From assembly GCA_000724175.1 (NCBI GenBank), contig JPGV01000027.1, positions 19,782 to 81,024 of the forward strand: DNA of 61,243 nt, in the 5' to 3' direction. The stretch's first letter is position 1, and each line of letters starts with the position of its first letter. The DNA is from [Candidatus Thermochlorobacteriaceae] bacterium GBChlB. GTDB taxonomy: Bacteria; Bacteroidota; Chlorobiia; Chlorobiales; Thermochlorobacteraceae. The translations under genes and the position numbers were made by a program. Positions 6,209 through 20,185 of this stretch are shown here, piece after piece. The notes under the pieces are model-generated. The model was not told where the DNA came from. It was given only the letters and a program-made list of their open reading frames with translations, and searched no databases.

Positions 6209-7084
6209 GTGAAAGCGCTGACCAAACCAAATCCGCCATTGAAACCTGCTCTGGCTCATCGTGAACCGCTTCGCGCCGCACACACGCCGAAAGACGCGCG
6301 CGACCGAGCAGTGCAAGAGTCGCTCAAAGCCACTGGCGCCATTCCTGTTCATATTGCCATCATCATGGACGGCAACGGACGCTGGGCGGAACGGCGTGGA
6401 AAGTTGCGCGTCTATGGACATAACGCCGGCATTGAGTCGGTGCGCGATACCGTCGAAGCCTCCGCTGAATTGGGCGTTGAATACCTCACGCTCTATGCGT
6501 TCTCAACCGAAAATTGGAAACGCCCGAAGCACGAAGTCTCCGCGCTAATGCAGCTCTTGATTCAAGCTATTCGCAAAGAGACCAAAACGCTGCACGACAA
6601 CGATGTGCGGCTCAATGCCATTGGCGACACATCCGCCCTACCGCCAAGCGTGCGCGACGAACTCGCCGAGGCAATAGAGTTAACCAAAAATAACCGACGC
6701 ATGACGCTCTCGCTGGCGCTGAGTTATAGCGGGCGCTGGGAGATTATGCAAGCCACGCGCCATATTGCTGAAGCCGTCAAACGTGGCGAACTCGACCCGT
6801 CCGAAATCACGGACGACGTGTTCGAAAAACACTTGGTAACCTACGGCATGCCGCATCCTGAACTGCTCATTCGCACAAGCGGCGAATTTCGCATCAGCAA
6901 TTTTCTGCTCTGGCAACTGGCATACACCGAAATTCACATTACTGACTGTTATTGGCCTGATTTTCGGCGCGATAAACTCTATGCAGCAATTCTTGATTTT
7001 CAGCGCCGTGAGCGCCGCTTCGGTATGACGAGCGAGCAACTTGCCGCGCTGCCGGACTCAACGATGCAAGAGCCAAAACCGTAA
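6209..7084 (+). CDS. uppS: Isoprenyl (undecaprenyl) diphosphate synthase
   Basis: Cis-prenyltransferase that builds the C55 lipid carrier for peptidoglycan and other glycans. The catalytic block IIMDGNGRWA has Asp54 in this numbering. The C-terminal signature runs from RTSGEFRISN to NFLLWQLAYTE. The open frame begins with GTG at 6209 and carries about 43 residues before the catalytic block, more than most family members. An in-frame GTG at 6311 would remove 34 of them; no ribosome site decides between the two. Only 4 bases separate its stop from bamA, so both are probably co-transcribed and serve envelope assembly. Confidence 0.93.
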   Translation: MKALTKPNPPLKPALAHREPLRAAHTPKDARDRAVQESLKATGAIPVHIAIIMDGNGRWAERRGKLRVYGHNAGIESVRDTVEASAELGVEYLTLYAFSTENWKRPKHEVSALMQLLIQAIRKETKTLHDNDVRLNAIGDTSALPPSVRDELAEAIELTKNNRRMTLSLALSYSGRWEIMQATRHIAEAVKRGELDPSEITDDVFEKHLVTYGMPHPELLIRTSGEFRISNFLLWQLAYTEIHITDCYWPDFRRDKLYAAILDFQRRERRFGMTSEQLAALPDSTMQEPKP

Positions 7085-7088
7085 TACG

Positions 7089-9551
7089 ATGACTGCCCAT
7101 AGACCATCGAACGCACTGCTGGCGCGACTTGTCTGTATTTCTGCGCTGCTTATCAACGCCCCGCTGTTGGCGCAAACCGATTCGCTGAAGTTCAAAGAGC
7201 CCGACTTCGAACAGCGCGAACCGCGCTCCTATAAAGTCGTCGACATTAAGGTCGCTGGACTCTCGACAATTGAGGAAAAAGACGTCTTGGCGCGATTCCC
7301 AATTCAAGTCGGCAGAGAGATTACGATTCCCGGACAAGAAATTCCCGATGCCATCAAGCGGCTTTGGCGGCAAAAACTCTTCAGCGACATCAAGGTCGAG
7401 ATTGAAGAAAAAACGCTTGAAGGTGGCGTCTCACTGCTCGTCAGCGTCAGAGAATACCCTGTGCTGGCAGGCATCGAGATTGAAGGCAATCGGCAATACA
7501 GCAGTGAAGACTTGCTGAAAAAAATTCAACTGGTGCGCGGCGCCACCATCACCGAACAAGCCGCCGCCGCCGCCTATCAACGGCTTAAAAAATACTACGA
7601 AGAAGAAGGCTACCTGCTCACCAGCATTCGATACGAGCTCAAAGAGACAACAGGTGGAAAGGCGATTCTCTATTTCTACATCACCGAGAGCACGTATGTA
7701 ACCATCGAAGAAATTCGTTGGCATGGCAACAAAGCCTACGACAACTGGGGGCTGAACTGGTATCTGGAAGAAACTAAAGAAAACAACTGGCTGCGAAATA
7801 TCTTCGGACGCCCACGCTTAGACCGCAAAAAATTTGAAGAAGATAAAACGAAGCTCATCAATAATGTCTATCGCGCCAACGGCTACCGCGACGCGCGCAT
7901 TCTCTCGGACAGCGTGAGCTATTCGCCCGATAAAACCAAACTCTACCTCGACATCTACGTCTCCGAAGGCCCGAAGTATATTATTCGCAACGTGAAGTTC
8001 GAAGGCAATACGCTCTATCCAACCGAAGCATTAGAACAAGTTTTCGGCATCAAAAAAGGCGATGTCTATAATCAAAAGAAAATTCAGGAACGCCTGTCGT
8101 TTTCGCAAGAGGGGGGCGACATCAGTTCGCTTTATTTGGACAGAGGCTATCTCGGCTTCCGCACCGATTTGGAAGAAACTGTGGTTGCAGGCGACTCGGT
8201 GGATTTGAAAATTTTTATGAACGAAGGCAATCAATTTCGCATTCGGCAAGTCGCCATCAAGGGCAACACGAAAACAAAAGACCATGTGATTCGGCGCGAA
8301 CTCTACACGGTGCCGGGCGACCTATTCAGCCGTGAGAACATTATCCGCAGTATCAGGCAGCTGGCGCAGTTGAACTATTTCGATGCGGAAAAAATCAATC
8401 CCGATGTGCAACCGCGTCCGCAAACCGACGAAGTGGATTTAACCTACGAACTCGCCGAAAAACAAACCGACACGTTTAATGCGTCGGCAGGTTACAGCGC
8501 GGCAATTGGCTTGACAGGTGCGTTGGGCTTTACGTTCAACAATTTTTCGCTGCGCGACATCACGCGCGGCGACGCCTACACCCCGCTTCCGCATGGCGAT
8601 GGACAACGGCTCGATTTGCAATGGCAATTCGGAAACTTCAATTTCCAAACGCTCTCATTAAGCTTCACCGAACCGTGGGCGTTTGGTTCGCCAACGACGC
8701 TCGGGTTCAGCATTTTCGACACGCGCCAAAACTTCGGCATCGCCAGCCAACAAACTGGCGCAACGCTCTCGCTTGGTCGACGGCTGTCGTTTCCCGACGA
8801 TTACTTCCGAATCGATTACACCTTTCGCTATCAGCGCGTGCAGGGCGGATTCATCAGTCTCAACGCAACAATACCCGGACAGCCCGACGTCGCCGATGAG
8901 TTCTCAATCACGCAAATTATCTCACGCAACAGTTTAGACAATCCAATCTTTGCGCGGCGCGGCAGTGATGTCTCGCTCACGGCGCAATTGTCTGGCGGTC
9001 CGTTCCTGCCCGGTTCGATTGACTTTTACCGATTCGTGTTCAGAAACTCGTGGTATACGCCCGTCGTTGGAAACTTGGTCTTGCTGCTCAGCTCCGAGTT
9101 CGGCTTCTTGGGCAAGTTCAATGAAAACGATTTTATTCCGTTCCAAAATTTGTTCTTCATGGGCGGAAGCGGCATCTCGTTCATTCCGACGATCCCCTTG
9201 CGCGGCTACGACGACCAAGCTATCGGACCGTTCTCGACGGAACTGCAACGTGCGACGGGAAATTTCTATACGAAATTCGTCTCCGAGATTCGCTATCCGA
9301 TTTCGCTCAACCCGCAGGCGACCGTGTTTGCATTGGCGTTCATTGAGGGCGGCAACATTTGGGCGCGCGCTGGCGACGTGAATTTCGCCGACCTCAAACG
9401 CTCGGCAGGCGTTGGCGTGCGGCTCTTCTTGCCGATTATCGGTCTCGTCGGTCTGGATTACGGCTTTGGCTTCGACCGCACGCTCTTGCGTCCCGACCTG
9501 CCGAATCAAGGCTGGAAATTTATCTTCACGTTTGGTCAGTTCGCGCGCTAA
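7089..9551 (+). CDS. bamA: Outer-membrane protein assembly factor BamA
   Basis: 820 residues: signal peptide (about 1–29, ending PLLAQ), a series of POTRA repeats over roughly the first half (each with the beta-alpha-alpha-beta-beta pattern, for example the segments beginning VVDIKVAGL, IRNVKFEGN and IRQVAIKGN), then an Omp85 barrel ending in the aromatic KFIFTFGQFAR. It inserts beta-barrel proteins into the outer membrane. The ATG at 7089, 4 bases after the uppS stop, is preferred over the upstream start at 7041, which overlaps uppS and puts 16 basic residues before the signal peptide. Confidence 0.95.
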   Translation: MTAHRPSNALLARLVCISALLINAPLLAQTDSLKFKEPDFEQREPRSYKVVDIKVAGLSTIEEKDVLARFPIQVGREITIPGQEIPDAIKRLWRQKLFSDIKVEIEEKTLEGGVSLLVSVREYPVLAGIEIEGNRQYSSEDLLKKIQLVRGATITEQAAAAAYQRLKKYYEEEGYLLTSIRYELKETTGGKAILYFYITESTYVTIEEIRWHGNKAYDNWGLNWYLEETKENNWLRNIFGRPRLDRKKFEEDKTKLINNVYRANGYRDARILSDSVSYSPDKTKLYLDIYVSEGPKYIIRNVKFEGNTLYPTEALEQVFGIKKGDVYNQKKIQERLSFSQEGGDISSLYLDRGYLGFRTDLEETVVAGDSVDLKIFMNEGNQFRIRQVAIKGNTKTKDHVIRRELYTVPGDLFSRENIIRSIRQLAQLNYFDAEKINPDVQPRPQTDEVDLTYELAEKQTDTFNASAGYSAAIGLTGALGFTFNNFSLRDITRGDAYTPLPHGDGQRLDLQWQFGNFNFQTLSLSFTEPWAFGSPTTLGFSIFDTRQNFGIASQQTGATLSLGRRLSFPDDYFRIDYTFRYQRVQGGFISLNATIPGQPDVADEFSITQIISRNSLDNPIFARRGSDVSLTAQLSGGPFLPGSIDFYRFVFRNSWYTPVVGNLVLLLSSEFGFLGKFNENDFIPFQNLFFMGGSGISFIPTIPLRGYDDQAIGPFSTELQRATGNFYTKFVSEIRYPISLNPQATVFALAFIEGGNIWARAGDVNFADLKRSAGVGVRLFLPIIGLVGLDYGFGFDRTLLRPDLPNQGWKFIFTFGQFAR

Positions 9552-12216: not shown

Positions 12217-15200
12217 TCAGCGCAAGATGCCCGCAAAGGCGTTGCGCGCGCCGTCGGCAAGGAAGTTGAAATCGAATAGCACGCCGAAATGAAAACGCCA
12301 TTCGCGTCCGTAGGTAACAAAGTTGCGTCCATCGGGCGTAAAGAATTGGCTGCGCAGCGGCTGCGAAAATTCATCGAGCCCATAAGTGGCGCTGAAAAAG
12401 ACGCGCGTCGGGAAGAGATAAAACGACGGTGCTTCGAGCCGCAGCTCAACGCCGATGTCGCGCCGCCACTCGGAAAACGCCGGAACGCGCCACTGATTCC
12501 ATGCTGCACCCACATCGAAAAACGTCGAGAGGTAAAGTTTATCGAAATAAAATTGCATGAACTGCACATTGATATTCTCGACGATAGGGAATCGATACTC
12601 GAGGTGCAGGAACGTGGCTTGGTCTCCGCCGATGGCAAAGTATTCATAGCCGCGCATGCCGAGCAAGCCTGAAATAAAATTGTTGAAAAAGAGGTCGGTT
12701 TCTTTCGGCGTAAAGTTGAATGCGGAGTAAGAGCGCACCGTGAGCGTGTGTCGAAAGCGCGAACTCCATGTCGGGAGCGGCAGATGAAAATTCAAGTCCG
12801 TGATGAGCCGCGCAAACGAGAAATTTTCATACACGGGTCGAAAGGTGCTGCTGCCTTGGTCAAATTTCAAATCGCGTTGCAAGCTGCTGTTCTCGTAGTC
12901 GAGGCGAATGCGCGAGAAAAAGCCGACGGGGTTGATGGCAGTGTGAATCGTGCGAGCGCGCAAGTCCATGTTCCAAACGAAAGAAACTGTTCGCCCGATG
13001 AAATATGTGTCGGAGCTGGCTGGCACAAGTTGGTTGATTGGCTCCCAAAAAAACGAGCCGATTTTTGAAGCATAAGGGCTGAGCGAAAATGTGAGCCTGA
13101 ACATACTCGCCTGAAAGAGCCAGAACTCAATCGGCATACGAAAGCGGAACGACAAATCGAACTGCGTGAGCGTGTAAAACACATTTGCCGACGCGCTATC
13201 AAGACCCACATTGATGCGTGCGCCGTCCGTAACATTGCGCGTTTGGTGAAATACATCGAGCGTAAATTTCGGCAACATGGAGGCGGGCAGAAAATTTTGG
13301 TCAGTGTATTCAAACGAGAGGAAAGCGTCGCGCTCTAAATCCAAGATGCTGGCTAAGCCGCCTGCACCGCCCGACTGTCCCGACCCAGGCGCAAGGGCAA
13401 CCGAGCCGAAAAACCCCAGTCTGCCCAAGAGTTCGGACGAGCCAAAGGCAACGCCGAGCTTCGTCGCCCGCCATGTATCTTTGAGAAAACTGCCTTGCGA
13501 TTTGGCATACGCATCAAAGCGAAGAATGGGCAGAACCTGAAAGCCTGAGAACGTTTGTGAATACTCGCGTTCCGGGAAGGTCGGATAAGTTGAATCGTCG
13601 AATGTCGCCAGCGATAAAAGCGTCGGCGAAAGCACTTTGCTCGAGTCAATCGTCGCGCCAGCATTGAGCGATGCTAATTCGGGCGATGAGAGTGTGAGCG
13701 ACGAGGTTTTCGGTGAAACGGGCCGGCGCACATATGTTGCATTCGGATGTTGAAGCGGTTGCGCGTTTTTGAGCAGCGAAATTTTGTATCCGTCCGATGT
13801 GAAGTTCGCAAACGCCAAGTCGCCTGATGGACTCGATGACGGCATGAACGCGCCGCCAACGACGTTGGTGAGCTGCTCGACGAGATGGGTTTCTAAATTG
13901 GCGCGGTAAATGTTGAAAATGCCTGTGCGATTGCTTGCGAAGTAAAGATATTTTCCGTCGGGCGAATAGGACGCGTCGCGCTCATCGAGGTCGTCGCGGT
14001 CGAGCAGCGAGTCGCCATAGACGACGGGAAACATTGTCCAAACGGCGTCTTGTCCGCGATGGTAAATCATGAGTTTGCGCCGCCCGTTTAGGCCGAGCGA
14101 GAAAACGATGCTTTTTCCATCGGGCGAATACGACGGCAAGTGAACCTGTTCGCCGTTTGAAAAATTGGTCAGGCGACGAAGCGATGTTTGCGCTGAATCC
14201 AGAACGCCCTCGACCACGTTTTGTGTGCCGTCTTTTTGCTCGACGGCGACGAAGTGTTTGGCGTCGGGCGAGAGCGCGGGCGTTTCAAGTCGAAGTTGTG
14301 TCGTTAGGCGCATCTCCTGTTTTGAATCGAGGTCGAAGACGAATAGGTCGTTATACTTTTGAATTTGAAAGGTTGTGCCAACGTATTTGGAGTAATAAAG
14401 TTTCTTTCCGTCGGGCGAGACGGTGATGCGCGACGTCGCGCCAGCAAGTAAGACGCCCTGATGCGATGCGCCGAAGTGAAACCCGCAGACGCGGCATTGA
14501 TTGCCGCCTTCCTGCGCTTTGCCAAGCGCAAAGAGGTCGCGCACCGTTGGTCGATAACCCGATGCTTCGGGCTTGAGCGAATCGCCTTGCAGGTCTCGTT
14601 CCAAAACAACATGTCCGCCGAAATCTGCGCCGAGATTGGAGATGTAGTAGAGCTTCTTGCCGTCGGGCGAAAATGCGGGATAGGCATTGGCGTAGCCGCG
14701 AGTTTCAATAAGTTTTCCCTCAACGCGGTTCGCCAACACATTTGAAATTCTCGATTGATAATCACGCTCGACATAGGTTCGCCACTCGCGGTAAATGTCG
14801 TCGGAGGATTTTTGATACGTGGCTTCAAGCGCGTGATGAACATTTAACTGAGCAAGCGACGCAAAATTTTTGCACAACTGCTCCAACTTTTCCTCGCCGT
14901 AGCGCTCCGCCAAAAATCTTGTCAGTGCGTAGCCCGAATTGTAGGTGAACTCGAACTCAATGCCTTTTTTGGACGCATAGTTCGAGAGTTCATCGAGCGA
15001 GAAGATTTTTTTATCGAGCGCAAGCGAGCGCAAAATCATATCGCGGTGGCTGTCCCACGTGTCGTAGCCAAGTTCGGGACGCTGATACTGCGCAACGCCT
15101 TCCGCGAGCCAAAACGGGAGATTAACGCCCGCAACAGGATACGAGACCAACACATTTGGAAATCCATACAAAATATCAGGACGGCGCACCGGCTCATAGC

Positions 15201-15663
15201 CAAAACCCTGTAAATACACGGCAGGAACGCCAGTGCCGAACTTCATCGCTGCCGTCAGCGTAACAATGTGCGTGAATTCATGCGTAATGACGTTGCGTAG
15301 CCAATTGTGCTGACCGCGCAAGCCGAATTCCAACGCGGGCGCCCAGATTTCAATTTTATTCTCGAAAAAATAGGCTCCGCCGTTGGAGTAGTCGTCAGTG
15401 TCTTTAATGATGATATTGACCTTGCCCGGCTCGTGGTGGTAGAGTGAGGTGAGGGGCGCGTAAATTTCTTCGGCGATTTTAGCGGCGACGCGTGCGGAGC
15501 GTTCCGCGCCCTCATGAAAATTTACTGTGAAGTGCGCCGTCTCAATCGTTTTCCATTTGAGTTCGGGGTGGCTGTATGCCTCGGGCTGCGCGTAGAGCCG
15601 TGCCGACGCAGCGCACAAAAATAGCAGCAGTAAAAAAGCAGCGCGGTTCAGCACAAGAGGCAT
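12217..15663 (-). CDS. Secreted metalloprotease with PD40 propeller and Omp85-like barrel
   Basis: 1148 residues in three parts. A signal peptide (about 1–26, ending RLYAQ) leads into a peptidase-MA-like domain with HEFTH (128–132) and a downstream WLAEGVAQY that could give the third zinc ligand. A long middle part repeats the PD40/TolB-type strand motif FSPDGKKLYY or YSPDGKYLYF at least six times, a beta-propeller. The last 400 or so residues are rich in alternating hydrophobic strands and contain LGMRGYEYFAIGGDQ, like the bacterial surface antigen barrel. I infer an outer-membrane-anchored surface or periplasmic enzyme. The start at 15663 gives a clean signal peptide; the upstream in-frame start at 15738 does not. 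Its substrate is unknown. Confidence 0.8.
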   Translation of the reverse strand: MPLVLNRAAFLLLLFLCAASARLYAQPEAYSHPELKWKTIETAHFTVNFHEGAERSARVAAKIAEEIYAPLTSLYHHEPGKVNIIIKDTDDYSNGGAYFFENKIEIWAPALEFGLRGQHNWLRNVITHEFTHIVTLTAAMKFGTGVPAVYLQGFGYEPVRRPDILYGFPNVLVSYPVAGVNLPFWLAEGVAQYQRPELGYDTWDSHRDMILRSLALDKKIFSLDELSNYASKKGIEFEFTYNSGYALTRFLAERYGEEKLEQLCKNFASLAQLNVHHALEATYQKSSDDIYREWRTYVERDYQSRISNVLANRVEGKLIETRGYANAYPAFSPDGKKLYYISNLGADFGGHVVLERDLQGDSLKPEASGYRPTVRDLFALGKAQEGGNQCRVCGFHFGASHQGVLLAGATSRITVSPDGKKLYYSKYVGTTFQIQKYNDLFVFDLDSKQEMRLTTQLRLETPALSPDAKHFVAVEQKDGTQNVVEGVLDSAQTSLRRLTNFSNGEQVHLPSYSPDGKSIVFSLGLNGRRKLMIYHRGQDAVWTMFPVVYGDSLLDRDDLDERDASYSPDGKYLYFASNRTGIFNIYRANLETHLVEQLTNVVGGAFMPSSSPSGDLAFANFTSDGYKISLLKNAQPLQHPNATYVRRPVSPKTSSLTLSSPELASLNAGATIDSSKVLSPTLLSLATFDDSTYPTFPEREYSQTFSGFQVLPILRFDAYAKSQGSFLKDTWRATKLGVAFGSSELLGRLGFFGSVALAPGSGQSGGAGGLASILDLERDAFLSFEYTDQNFLPASMLPKFTLDVFHQTRNVTDGARINVGLDSASANVFYTLTQFDLSFRFRMPIEFWLFQASMFRLTFSLSPYASKIGSFFWEPINQLVPASSDTYFIGRTVSFVWNMDLRARTIHTAINPVGFFSRIRLDYENSSLQRDLKFDQGSSTFRPVYENFSFARLITDLNFHLPLPTWSSRFRHTLTVRSYSAFNFTPKETDLFFNNFISGLLGMRGYEYFAIGGDQATFLHLEYRFPIVENINVQFMQFYFDKLYLSTFFDVGAAWNQWRVPAFSEWRRDIGVELRLEAPSFYLFPTRVFFSATYGLDEFSQPLRSQFFTPDGRNFVTYGREWRFHFGVLFDFNFLADGARNAFAGILR

Positions 15664-15746
15664 CTCCGTTTTTTTTAAGTTGAGAACGCAAGATAGCGCG
15701 GGCGTAACGAAGAAATCAAGGTGCAACACTTGCCACACCGCCGCAA

Positions 15747-17767: not shown

Positions 17768-20185
17768 TTACATCTCCACAGTGAACGCAGTGGGTTCGAG
17801 CGGTTTTCCGCCAACGATGTAATCCGAGACAATTTGAGCGCAGAAGGCGTCGACGCGTTGCTTTGCTGCCAGTGCTGCGTCATCGCCCTCGCGCGATTTT
17901 TTCACTAAAAGCGAATACGGTTCAGTGTGCAAGAGGTCGCTCGCCAAATTCAAGAACGCCAATTCGGATTGATTTTTTAATGTCTCGGCAACAAGCTCCG
18001 TTTGTGTTTCCTTGTCGGGATTTGCGCCGAGCGTATGCAGGTCGCCGCAGATGAGTCGGTTCTCCATTTCTTTCAGGCAGTTCATCAGGTCGCAGGCGTA
18101 ACGCTCAAAGTCGCTTTGAGGCGGCACATCGTCGTTGAGATTCAGCAACGCGGCTTTTTGCAGAATCGCCTCGCGCAGGTCGGCGGAGTCTCTGCCCGTC
18201 CGGTAATCGTCGAGAAGGTCGCGCAACGCTTGAAACTCTTTGTAGAGACCCGCTCTGGCGTAAGGCGGAATCGCATGCGAGATGATGGTGGCATAGCCGC
18301 GCCGCTTGGCGATGTTCGCCTCCGACGGGTTGTTCATCGGATAAACATAAAACTGCGGTAAGTCGCCAAGCAGCACGTCCGACCAACAGTCGTCCGTCAA
18401 GCCTAACTGCAAACCCGGCATCCATTCTGCCGTGCCGTGCATGCCGAAGTGAATCAACGCATCTGCGCCGAAGCCATTTGTAATCCATTTGTAGAACATC
18501 ACGAATTGGTGATGTGGCGTGTTTTCTTTATCGAACAGGAGCCGCATCGGGTCGCCTTGAATGAACAGCTGCGGTTGTGCGCCAATGTAGATGTTCCCGA
18601 ATTGCAGCCCGCCGATGATGAATGTCTCGCTGTTCGCCACCGAAATATCGCCGGGCGCGTTTCCCCAGCGCGCCTCGATACGCTCTTGCGCTTTCGGCGA
18701 CACCCATTGATGATACTGGCGCATCGTTGCGGTTATCGGCTTGCCGTCAATGCTAAGTGTTGCAGCAAGGTCGCGTGTGAGTTGTTCAGGCTCAACGGCG
18801 TAGCGCAAAAAGAAATCGCCGACATTGTAGCCCTCTTGTTGCAGCGACTTCATTGTATTGACGAGGCTTTGCGGCACGTTGAGCAACGCCGCCGTTCCAA
18901 GTTTGCCTTGATTCGGCGGATAATTGTAAAGCACAATCGCTACTTTTTTATCACGATTGGCTTTATGTTTCAAGGCAACCCATCGTTTGACGAGTTTGGT
19001 CAATCGGTTCAATCTCGTCGATTCCGTTTTCAGTTTATCGCTCTCTAATGCGCCCAAGACGACGGGACAAATCGCGCCGTCCATTTCAGGCAGCGAGTAG
19101 ACAATCATCGACTGAATCGGGTTCACGCCGTGTTCGCGCCAGCTGTCTTTGGTTTGAATGAAAAGCGGTTGCGAGACGATATACGGCGCGTTCATAGACG
19201 ACAAAATGTCGGACGCGGCGGGATTTGCAATGCCTGTGCTGGTCGAGCCAGCAGGTCCGCCAACGAGCGGAAAGCCGAATAAATTAATCAGCGCTTCAAC
19301 GCCTGCTTCTTTGAGCCAACTGCGCGTAACAATGTGCAACTCAATTCCCATGGCGAAACACGGATAGACGCGCAAACCCTCGGCTTCCATCGCTCGAATC
19401 ACATCGGCGGCGTAGCCCGTCCCAGAGAGCAAGTGCTTCCGCGGCAAGAGCAAGCCGACTTTGGGTTTATCGCCTTTGTCGCGTCCGGTTTTCTTTTCCC
19501 ACTTTTGAAAACTGTGCAGGTCGGGAAAAAACGATGTGGTTTGCGCAAAGTAGTCGGGGTGATAAAATCCCATTGTGGCAATTTCCTTTGGCGCGTCGTG
19601 CGTGGTGTTAATGTGAAACAGTTTATCAGCGATGTAGAGCAGCATATTGAGGATATTTTCCTCGCCGCTGTTCGACCAATAGGAACTAACGGTCATCCAT
19701 GTTCTGGCGTCGCGCACTTTTTCGCCGCCGAAACTCTCGGGCAAAAATTTCATCACGCGGTTAGCAAGTTTTTGCATTTGGACATAGCCGTAGAATGCGT
19801 CCTCGTCTTTGCCGCCGCCGAGCATTTTGCCCAACGCTTTGACGGGCTTCGGCATCTCGCCTTTTTCGGAAAAGTGATACGCGCCGACTTTATTGCGCTT
19901 CATTAACGCAGGCAGCGACTCAAACGAAAACACAAACTCAGGCGAATGCTTGTTAAGCAGTTCTAAAAGCGCGGACGCCGAGTCGTCGATGACCATCAGC
20001 GCGGAAAAGACTGCGTCGCACTGCGCGATTGCCGCGTCGACGGCGGCGTAGTTATCGAGCAACTCTTGATCGTAAAACACATCGAGCGCGACAGCAGGGC
20101 AGAGCGATTCAAATTTTTTTTTGATGGAATAAAAAAACTCGGCGTTGTAGGGTTCCATGCCAAGCACGAAGACGAGGCGTTTCAT
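17768..20185 (-). CDS. bchH: Magnesium chelatase subunit H, N-terminal two thirds (split gene)
   Basis: 805 residues matching the N-terminal and central parts of the porphyrin-binding H subunit (BchH/BchS/BchT type), which holds protoporphyrin IX while the BchI/BchD motor drives Mg insertion. The central block GMHGTAEWMP (581–590), DVLLGDLP (603–610), NNPSEANIAKRRGY (618–631) and PPYARAGLY (640–648) is of the chlorophyll type, not CobN. The chain stops at a natural TAA after VGGKPLEPTAF. The C-terminal domain of about 460 residues is missing here and is encoded at 43762–45153. AAGGAG seven bases before the ATG supports the start. cobC and cobS lie upstream on the same strand. BchS or BchT identity is equally possible. 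Confidence 0.88.
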   Translation of the reverse strand: MKRLVFVLGMEPYNAEFFYSIKKKFESLCPAVALDVFYDQELLDNYAAVDAAIAQCDAVFSALMVIDDSASALLELLNKHSPEFVFSFESLPALMKRNKVGAYHFSEKGEMPKPVKALGKMLGGGKDEDAFYGYVQMQKLANRVMKFLPESFGGEKVRDARTWMTVSSYWSNSGEENILNMLLYIADKLFHINTTHDAPKEIATMGFYHPDYFAQTTSFFPDLHSFQKWEKKTGRDKGDKPKVGLLLPRKHLLSGTGYAADVIRAMEAEGLRVYPCFAMGIELHIVTRSWLKEAGVEALINLFGFPLVGGPAGSTSTGIANPAASDILSSMNAPYIVSQPLFIQTKDSWREHGVNPIQSMIVYSLPEMDGAICPVVLGALESDKLKTESTRLNRLTKLVKRWVALKHKANRDKKVAIVLYNYPPNQGKLGTAALLNVPQSLVNTMKSLQQEGYNVGDFFLRYAVEPEQLTRDLAATLSIDGKPITATMRQYHQWVSPKAQERIEARWGNAPGDISVANSETFIIGGLQFGNIYIGAQPQLFIQGDPMRLLFDKENTPHHQFVMFYKWITNGFGADALIHFGMHGTAEWMPGLQLGLTDDCWSDVLLGDLPQFYVYPMNNPSEANIAKRRGYATIISHAIPPYARAGLYKEFQALRDLLDDYRTGRDSADLREAILQKAALLNLNDDVPPQSDFERYACDLMNCLKEMENRLICGDLHTLGANPDKETQTELVAETLKNQSELAFLNLASDLLHTEPYSLLVKKSREGDDAALAAKQRVDAFCAQIVSDYIVGGKPLEPTAFTVEM

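Follow-up and report, generated by a model that had tools for sequence, protein, structure and literature searches.

A predicted zinc protease joined to a TolB-like propeller and an Omp85-type barrel, and its co-occurrence with the inactivated M6-like protein of the type IX secretion system in Bacteroidota

The window, that is, the whole stretch of 61,243 nucleotides analysed here (Candidatus Thermochlorobacteriaceae bacterium GBChlB, contig JPGV01000027.1, positions 19,782 to 81,024), carries on its reverse strand an open reading frame (12217-15663) whose translation gives 1148 amino acids without internal stop. The open frame reaches back to a GTG at 15738, and the ATG at 15663 sits before a typical signal peptide. 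As a reading of the sequence alone had proposed, the product is one chain in three parts: Pfam matches identify a Peptidase_MA_2 domain and a PD40 propeller, and a profile match to BamA identifies an Omp85-like barrel. The features are as follows.

12217..15663 (-), whole gene: 1148 amino acids and stop; ATG start, GTG start at 15738 possible
15586..15663 (-), probable signal peptide, residues 1-26, without lipobox cysteine (from the sequence; boundary set by eye)
14704..15585 (-), peptidase MA domain, residues 27-320 (Pfam and conservation; boundaries approximate)
15268..15282 (-), HEFTH zinc-binding motif, residues 128-132 (alignment and homologues)
15100..15102 (-), E188 in WLAEGVAQY, presumed third zinc ligand (assigned from the gluzincin pattern)
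13744..14703 (-), PD40 / TolB-like beta-propeller, residues 321-640 (Pfam, NCBIfam and PDB matches; boundaries approximate)
12262..13563 (-), Omp85-type barrel, residues 701-1134 (boundaries approximate; the profile match spans the C-terminal part)
12646..12654 (-), RGY within the RGYE block, corresponding to the VRGF/Y motif of Omp85 proteins (alignments)
12220..12261 (-), 14-residue extension past the last barrel strand (alignment)

In the alignment of 40, the relatives mostly stop near residue 1135, the window protein being 14 residues longer. Two other genes of the window were noted: a BamA with POTRA and Omp85 domains is encoded at 7041-9551 (+), and a CobN/magnesium-chelatase-type gene (17768-20185 (-)) lies near the window gene, likewise in the Thermochlorobacter locus L004.

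A HEFTH zinc-protease domain had been read in the chain, and it withstood comparison with the relatives. The window protein scores 48.4 bits against the Pfam model Peptidase_MA_2 (PF13485, cut-off 32.4), the best Pfam stretch covering residues 179-298 only, and the family model matches all 40 aligned members at E ≤ 0.1. The HEFTH motif occupies residues 128-132 and WLAEG residues 185-189; an HExxH motif followed by a glutamate 60 residues downstream, the third ligand, is conserved in 51/51 distinct homologues (from 53 distinct ORFs, of which two duplicate the window gene itself and were not counted), a looser pattern being needed for two of them. Alignments A1 and A2 consist of 39 homologues and the window protein; of the twelve homologues left out, a rule on start codons removed six and a more stringent BLAST setting five, and one was a near-duplicate. 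HExxH and the later glutamate are present in every one of them. In the 40-sequence alignment H128, E129, H132 and E188 are invariant, and so are R160, R161, D163, Y166 and G167, which lie between HExxH and the glutamate. The window protein is thus like PF13485 in passing the model cut-off and in having HExxH and a later conserved glutamate, but it differs in this stretch of invariant residues between the two. Apart from the signal peptide, the first 250 residues are the best conserved portion of the chain. Because the active-site residues are invariant and the N-terminal part is the best conserved, the alignments suggest that the window protein is a working zinc protease.

The propeller that follows reaches 89.5 bits with the Pfam model PD40 (cut-off 20.9) in the window protein. 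PD40 is recognized in 39 of the 40 members, the TolB propeller model in every one of them, and the top PDB matches are TolB structures; the NCBIfam TolB equivalog gives the window protein 76.2 bits, below its cut-off of 343.15. At least six SPDGK repeats had been counted from the sequence. Four copies are exact (residues 332, 416, 513 and 567), but the other two are degenerate (SPDAK at 465 and SPSGD at 611); shuffled proteins contain such motifs at a mean of 0.0075 per protein. A metal site formed by the cysteine pair near residues 390-393 was considered and rejected, since the two cysteines occur together only in sequences closely related to the window protein (7 of the 40 have C390).

As a single sequence, the window protein matches the NCBIfam model Omp85_fam at E 1.5e-3 (18.1 bits, cut-off 200), and the Pfam Omp85 model recognizes one of the 40 members (E 2.8e-4). 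When a barrel profile of the 40 relatives was compared with a profile of 31 BamA barrels, the match had a probability of 95.4% (E 2e-8) over 157 columns in the C-terminal part, with RGY aligned on RGY; the controls gave 0.3% for the reversed profile, 0.2% for PorV and 0.1% for the M6-like protein M6i described below. The same profile reached a probability of 3.4% only against the window's single BamA, and found no Omp85 structure at E ≤ 5 among PDB sequences. An Omp85-like barrel in the last 400 residues, as read earlier, is therefore borne out by the BamA profile match, and the RGYE block was found at residues 1004-1007. The position that aligns with the RGY of BamA, the VRGF/Y position, is in the family Y in 40/40 sequences, R in 32 and K in 8, and G in 21 and S in 19. 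AlphaFold run on two-sequence alignments (the window protein and its relative at L004) gave no usable fold (mean pLDDT 31.2 for the whole chain and 36.4 for the barrel), so the barrel rests on the profile comparison. A crude amphipathicity score counted 18 peaks in the family barrel against 16 in that of BamA, but with 13 peaks across the POTRA domains of BamA and 7 across the MA domain it lacks the specificity needed to count strands. In terms of profile similarity, the C-terminal part is shown to be related to Omp85, and a 16-strand barrel fold is likely. No POTRA match was found with Pfam in the window protein (E ≤ 1), nor for the 40 members among the best 25 of 31 families, and the propeller occupies the POTRA place. 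In part of the family, many relatives (e.g. L015 and L020 in A2) share in the barrel region an EEFPCTxC segment that is conserved and contains two cysteines.

This architecture is not new. In 2014 Heinz and Lithgow described 'WD40-Omp85' proteins, with an N-terminal TolB-like propeller and an Omp85-type barrel without POTRA, among Omp85 subfamilies whose N-terminal domains are of another kind or absent (PMC4104836). The window protein is like them in the order of its parts, in its lack of POTRA and in a propeller most similar to TolB; it differs from their description in its peptidase domain and T9SS link, neither of which is named in the passages on this subfamily, the word 'peptidase' occurring 0 times in the main text (PMC4104836). 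A paralogue with the same N-terminal domains also exists in the window's genome (L035:3280-6774 (-), contig C28, 1165 amino acids). It passes the cut-offs of Peptidase_MA_2 and PD40 and has a weak C-terminal TamL match (E 8.9e-4), but it is only about 24% identical to the window protein, over residues 8-591 only. Relatives of the paralogue also occur in genomes without the window-protein family, for example G003, G018 and G030, and 58 of the 61 genomes searched contain a sequence that matches it at E ≤ 0.001.

On which side of the membrane the N-terminal domains lie can be approached through PlpD. Among Omp85 proteins that carry an enzyme at the N-terminus this one has been studied best, and its enzyme domain was located in the periplasm (PMC11116518); in the parts of this source that bear on them, metalloprotease-like and WD40-like Omp85 proteins are called little characterised. 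PlpD-type patatins resemble the window protein in combining an enzyme, at the N-terminus, with an Omp85 barrel in one chain, but there the enzyme is a phospholipase and a POTRA domain separates it from the barrel, whereas the window protein has a protease and a propeller (PMC11116518). The sequence-only reading had spoken of a self-anchored surface protease, with a propeller that might bind or feed substrate. For this the N-terminal domains would have to cross or bypass the barrel and act outside. The signal peptide, the barrel and the kept active site are compatible with this, and the neighbour genes of the family are cell-surface sorting genes. We nevertheless consider it improbable: nothing places the N-terminal domains outside, no passenger-transport feature was found, and these domains stand at the POTRA place, the corresponding enzyme domain of PlpD being periplasmic (PMC11116518). 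For these last two reasons we prefer the periplasmic side, and by analogy with PlpD the N-terminal domains most likely face the periplasm.

We then looked at the distribution of the family in 296 Bacteroidota genomes, the best two candidates per genome being scored in the searches for the window family, PorU and M6i. A match to the window protein at E ≤ 0.001 was obtained in 252/296 genomes, which is more than chance would give, and 114 genomes had a strong match (E about 1e-80, a cut that we chose). The family thus occurs in other Bacteroidota lineages as well. The family-rank group f3, of the same order as the window, has weak matches only; the nearest named relative, Candidatus Thermochlorobacter aerophilum, is 67% identical. 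A single contig scan of genomes, run with relatives outside Bacteroidota in view, returned one locus in all, and four plasmid records match the window protein at 17-48% cover. In a deeper recheck of 32 of the 182 negative genomes, the best window-protein match (4.2e-21) was partial. Two proteins of 973 and 990 amino acids (G164:C15:782474-783994 and G208:C1:423375-424661), without a strong full-length match, are 43-47% identical to the window protein across about 110-130 N-terminal residues.

The window's genome has SprA, PorU and PorV, and the type A sorting domain is matched 45 times in it. It also has a member of NCBIfam NF052323 (M6i), the T9SS-dependent M6-like inactivated metalloprotease, with 800 bits for a cut-off of 600. 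M6i is a neighbour of the window-protein family and not a homologue. Strong M6i matches occur in exactly the same 114 of the 296 genomes as the window family, with no genome having one alone, and M6i is above cut-off in none of the 32 rechecked negative genomes, where the sorting domain accounts for most of its best matches. The two genes are also close to each other: distances were typed for 112 of the 114 genomes (G001 and G011 being left out), and family gene and M6i are at most 3 kb apart in 98 of them. One genome has them at a distance of 859 kb, and 13 have them on separate contigs, where draft assemblies may hide links. The usual gene order is porU-porV-M6i-family gene. Around the loci of the 40 relatives the cluster contains DUF5683-like genes (29), M6i (28), PorV-family genes (26) and PorU-like genes (24); in two loci taken as representative, the neighbouring genes score above the NCBIfam thresholds of PorU, PorV and NF052323, and their DUF5683 matches stay below the Pfam cut-off. 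In the window's order the arrangement is looser, all ten family-positive genomes keeping M6i, on different contigs in nine and 859 kb away in the tenth. In the window's own genome porV adjoins M6i on another contig than the window gene, and no T9SS gene adjoins the window's own copy.

Joint losses were found in two lineages (loci L120-L123 and L119, compared with L124 and L125). In four genomes of one genus (G151, G227, G250 and G286) M6i and the family gene are both gone and porV is in place, followed directly by DUF5683 or by the next gene after it; the congeners G081 and G274 have both genes. The G250 junction has a stretch of 16 residues similar to the family C-terminus (E 0.035), which is no more than suggestive. 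In G239, from another family, the order is porU-porV-TlpA, and in its congener G085 it is porU-porV-M6i-family gene-TlpA. The clear joint losses thus amount to five genomes in two lineages, and the co-occurrence does not represent 296 independent events, since most of the agreement can be vertical inheritance. For the same reason the pair could be old neighbour genes of one lineage that are inherited together and have no common function. Vertical inheritance accounts for much of the agreement, and the distances correlate with PorV too: over 23 loci the mirror-tree correlation is 0.936 for family and M6i and 0.909 for family and PorV, and as the M6i value is only slightly above the PorV value we give it little weight. 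Yet both genes are kept in the ten genomes in which their adjacency has been lost, and both vanish in two lineages while porV remains, which makes such a coincidence of inheritance quite unlikely in our view.

The family is not a general part of the T9SS, because PorU passes its cut-off in 196/296 genomes and the family is strong in 114/296; a core component was considered and ruled out by the many PorU-bearing genomes that lack the family. Conversely, nine of the 114 genomes (G061, G081, G108, G119, G171, G203, G235, G266 and G274) have no convincing PorU, with best E values from 1.5e-5 to 6.5e-10 among the two candidates scored. These nine keep the family, M6i, SprA, PorV-family genes and 7 to 32 sorting-domain matches, and the pair therefore does not depend on the presence of PorU.

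M6i itself appears to be a kept pseudo-enzyme. HExxH is absent in 28/28 aligned sequences, the former zinc site reads like NGLLCASIGSHLGLPDL in the ten sequences shown, and the type A sorting domain was found in all three that were scanned. Its conservation suggests a part in binding or in regulation, and not a catalytic one. The tie to this T9SS-exported pseudo-protease is the strongest clue to the role of the window protein, and we tentatively favour the view that the latter is an outer-membrane-anchored protease working with, or on, M6i, for which we infer the activity, the periplasmic location, the contact and its direction. The Omp85-type barrel would sit in the outer membrane and anchor the protein, and the TolB-like propeller and the gluzincin domain would be suspended from it at the POTRA place, most likely on the periplasmic side. 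M6i, a T9SS passenger that is M6-protease-like and has lost its zinc site, would be the dedicated partner; protease and propeller may handle it on its delivery to PorV and the T9SS, either for maturation, as a substrate, or for assembly, as a partner. The family gene and the M6i gene would then work as a single unit joined to the porU-porV locus. A possible model is E. coli BepA, a periplasmic zinc peptidase that either helps LptD to mature or degrades it, probably while at the BAM complex (PMC8423444).

BepA is also the model for another reading, which we find rather doubtful though less so than the surface protease. The protein would serve general outer-membrane protein quality control as a self-anchored BepA analogue: the periplasmic protease would cut misfolded barrel proteins, the propeller would act like BamB, and M6i would be a neighbour or one of several clients. 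The Omp85 barrel, the TolB-like propeller and the kept active site are all consistent with it, as is the action of BepA on LptD. BepA and BamB on BAM likewise bring a periplasmic zinc peptidase and a propeller to an Omp85 barrel (PMC8423444, PMC4104836), the difference being that in E. coli they are separate proteins. However, a general factor should not track one passenger so exactly, with the same 114 genomes and joint losses, and BepA is an M48 peptidase (PMC7950410), a type for which the window protein has no Pfam match at E ≤ 1.

Two further readings keep M6i as the partner and place it outside the cell. It may be an accessory protein or regulator rather than a substrate, capping the extracellular loops of the barrel in the way that, in the BAM complex of F. 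johnsoniae, a member of the Bacteroidota, the BamA barrel is covered on the outside by a canopy of lipoproteins (PMC12611786). The conservation of M6i as a pseudo-enzyme with a surface export signal and this canopy speak for such a cap; as an argument by analogy it seems to us unlikely. In a bolder version, to which we attach a small probability, the pair would be a device spanning the outer membrane, with the live protease and the propeller inside and the dead protease M6i, brought by the T9SS, on the barrel loops outside, the arrival of M6i controlling proteolysis or the reverse.

In the literature covered, from which subscription journals are mostly absent, we found no report of a protein of the window type with the T9SS or with M6i, and it is the M6i partner that looks new. 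A fixed partner and a place beside PorU and PorV give this Omp85 group a first concrete and testable context. They suggest an extra two-gene module on the T9SS of Bacteroidota lineages outside the best studied ones, and also that some genomes keep this module after the loss of PorU. Finally, in five loci a TlpA/DsbE-like thioredoxin gene adjoins the family gene or lies inside the cluster.
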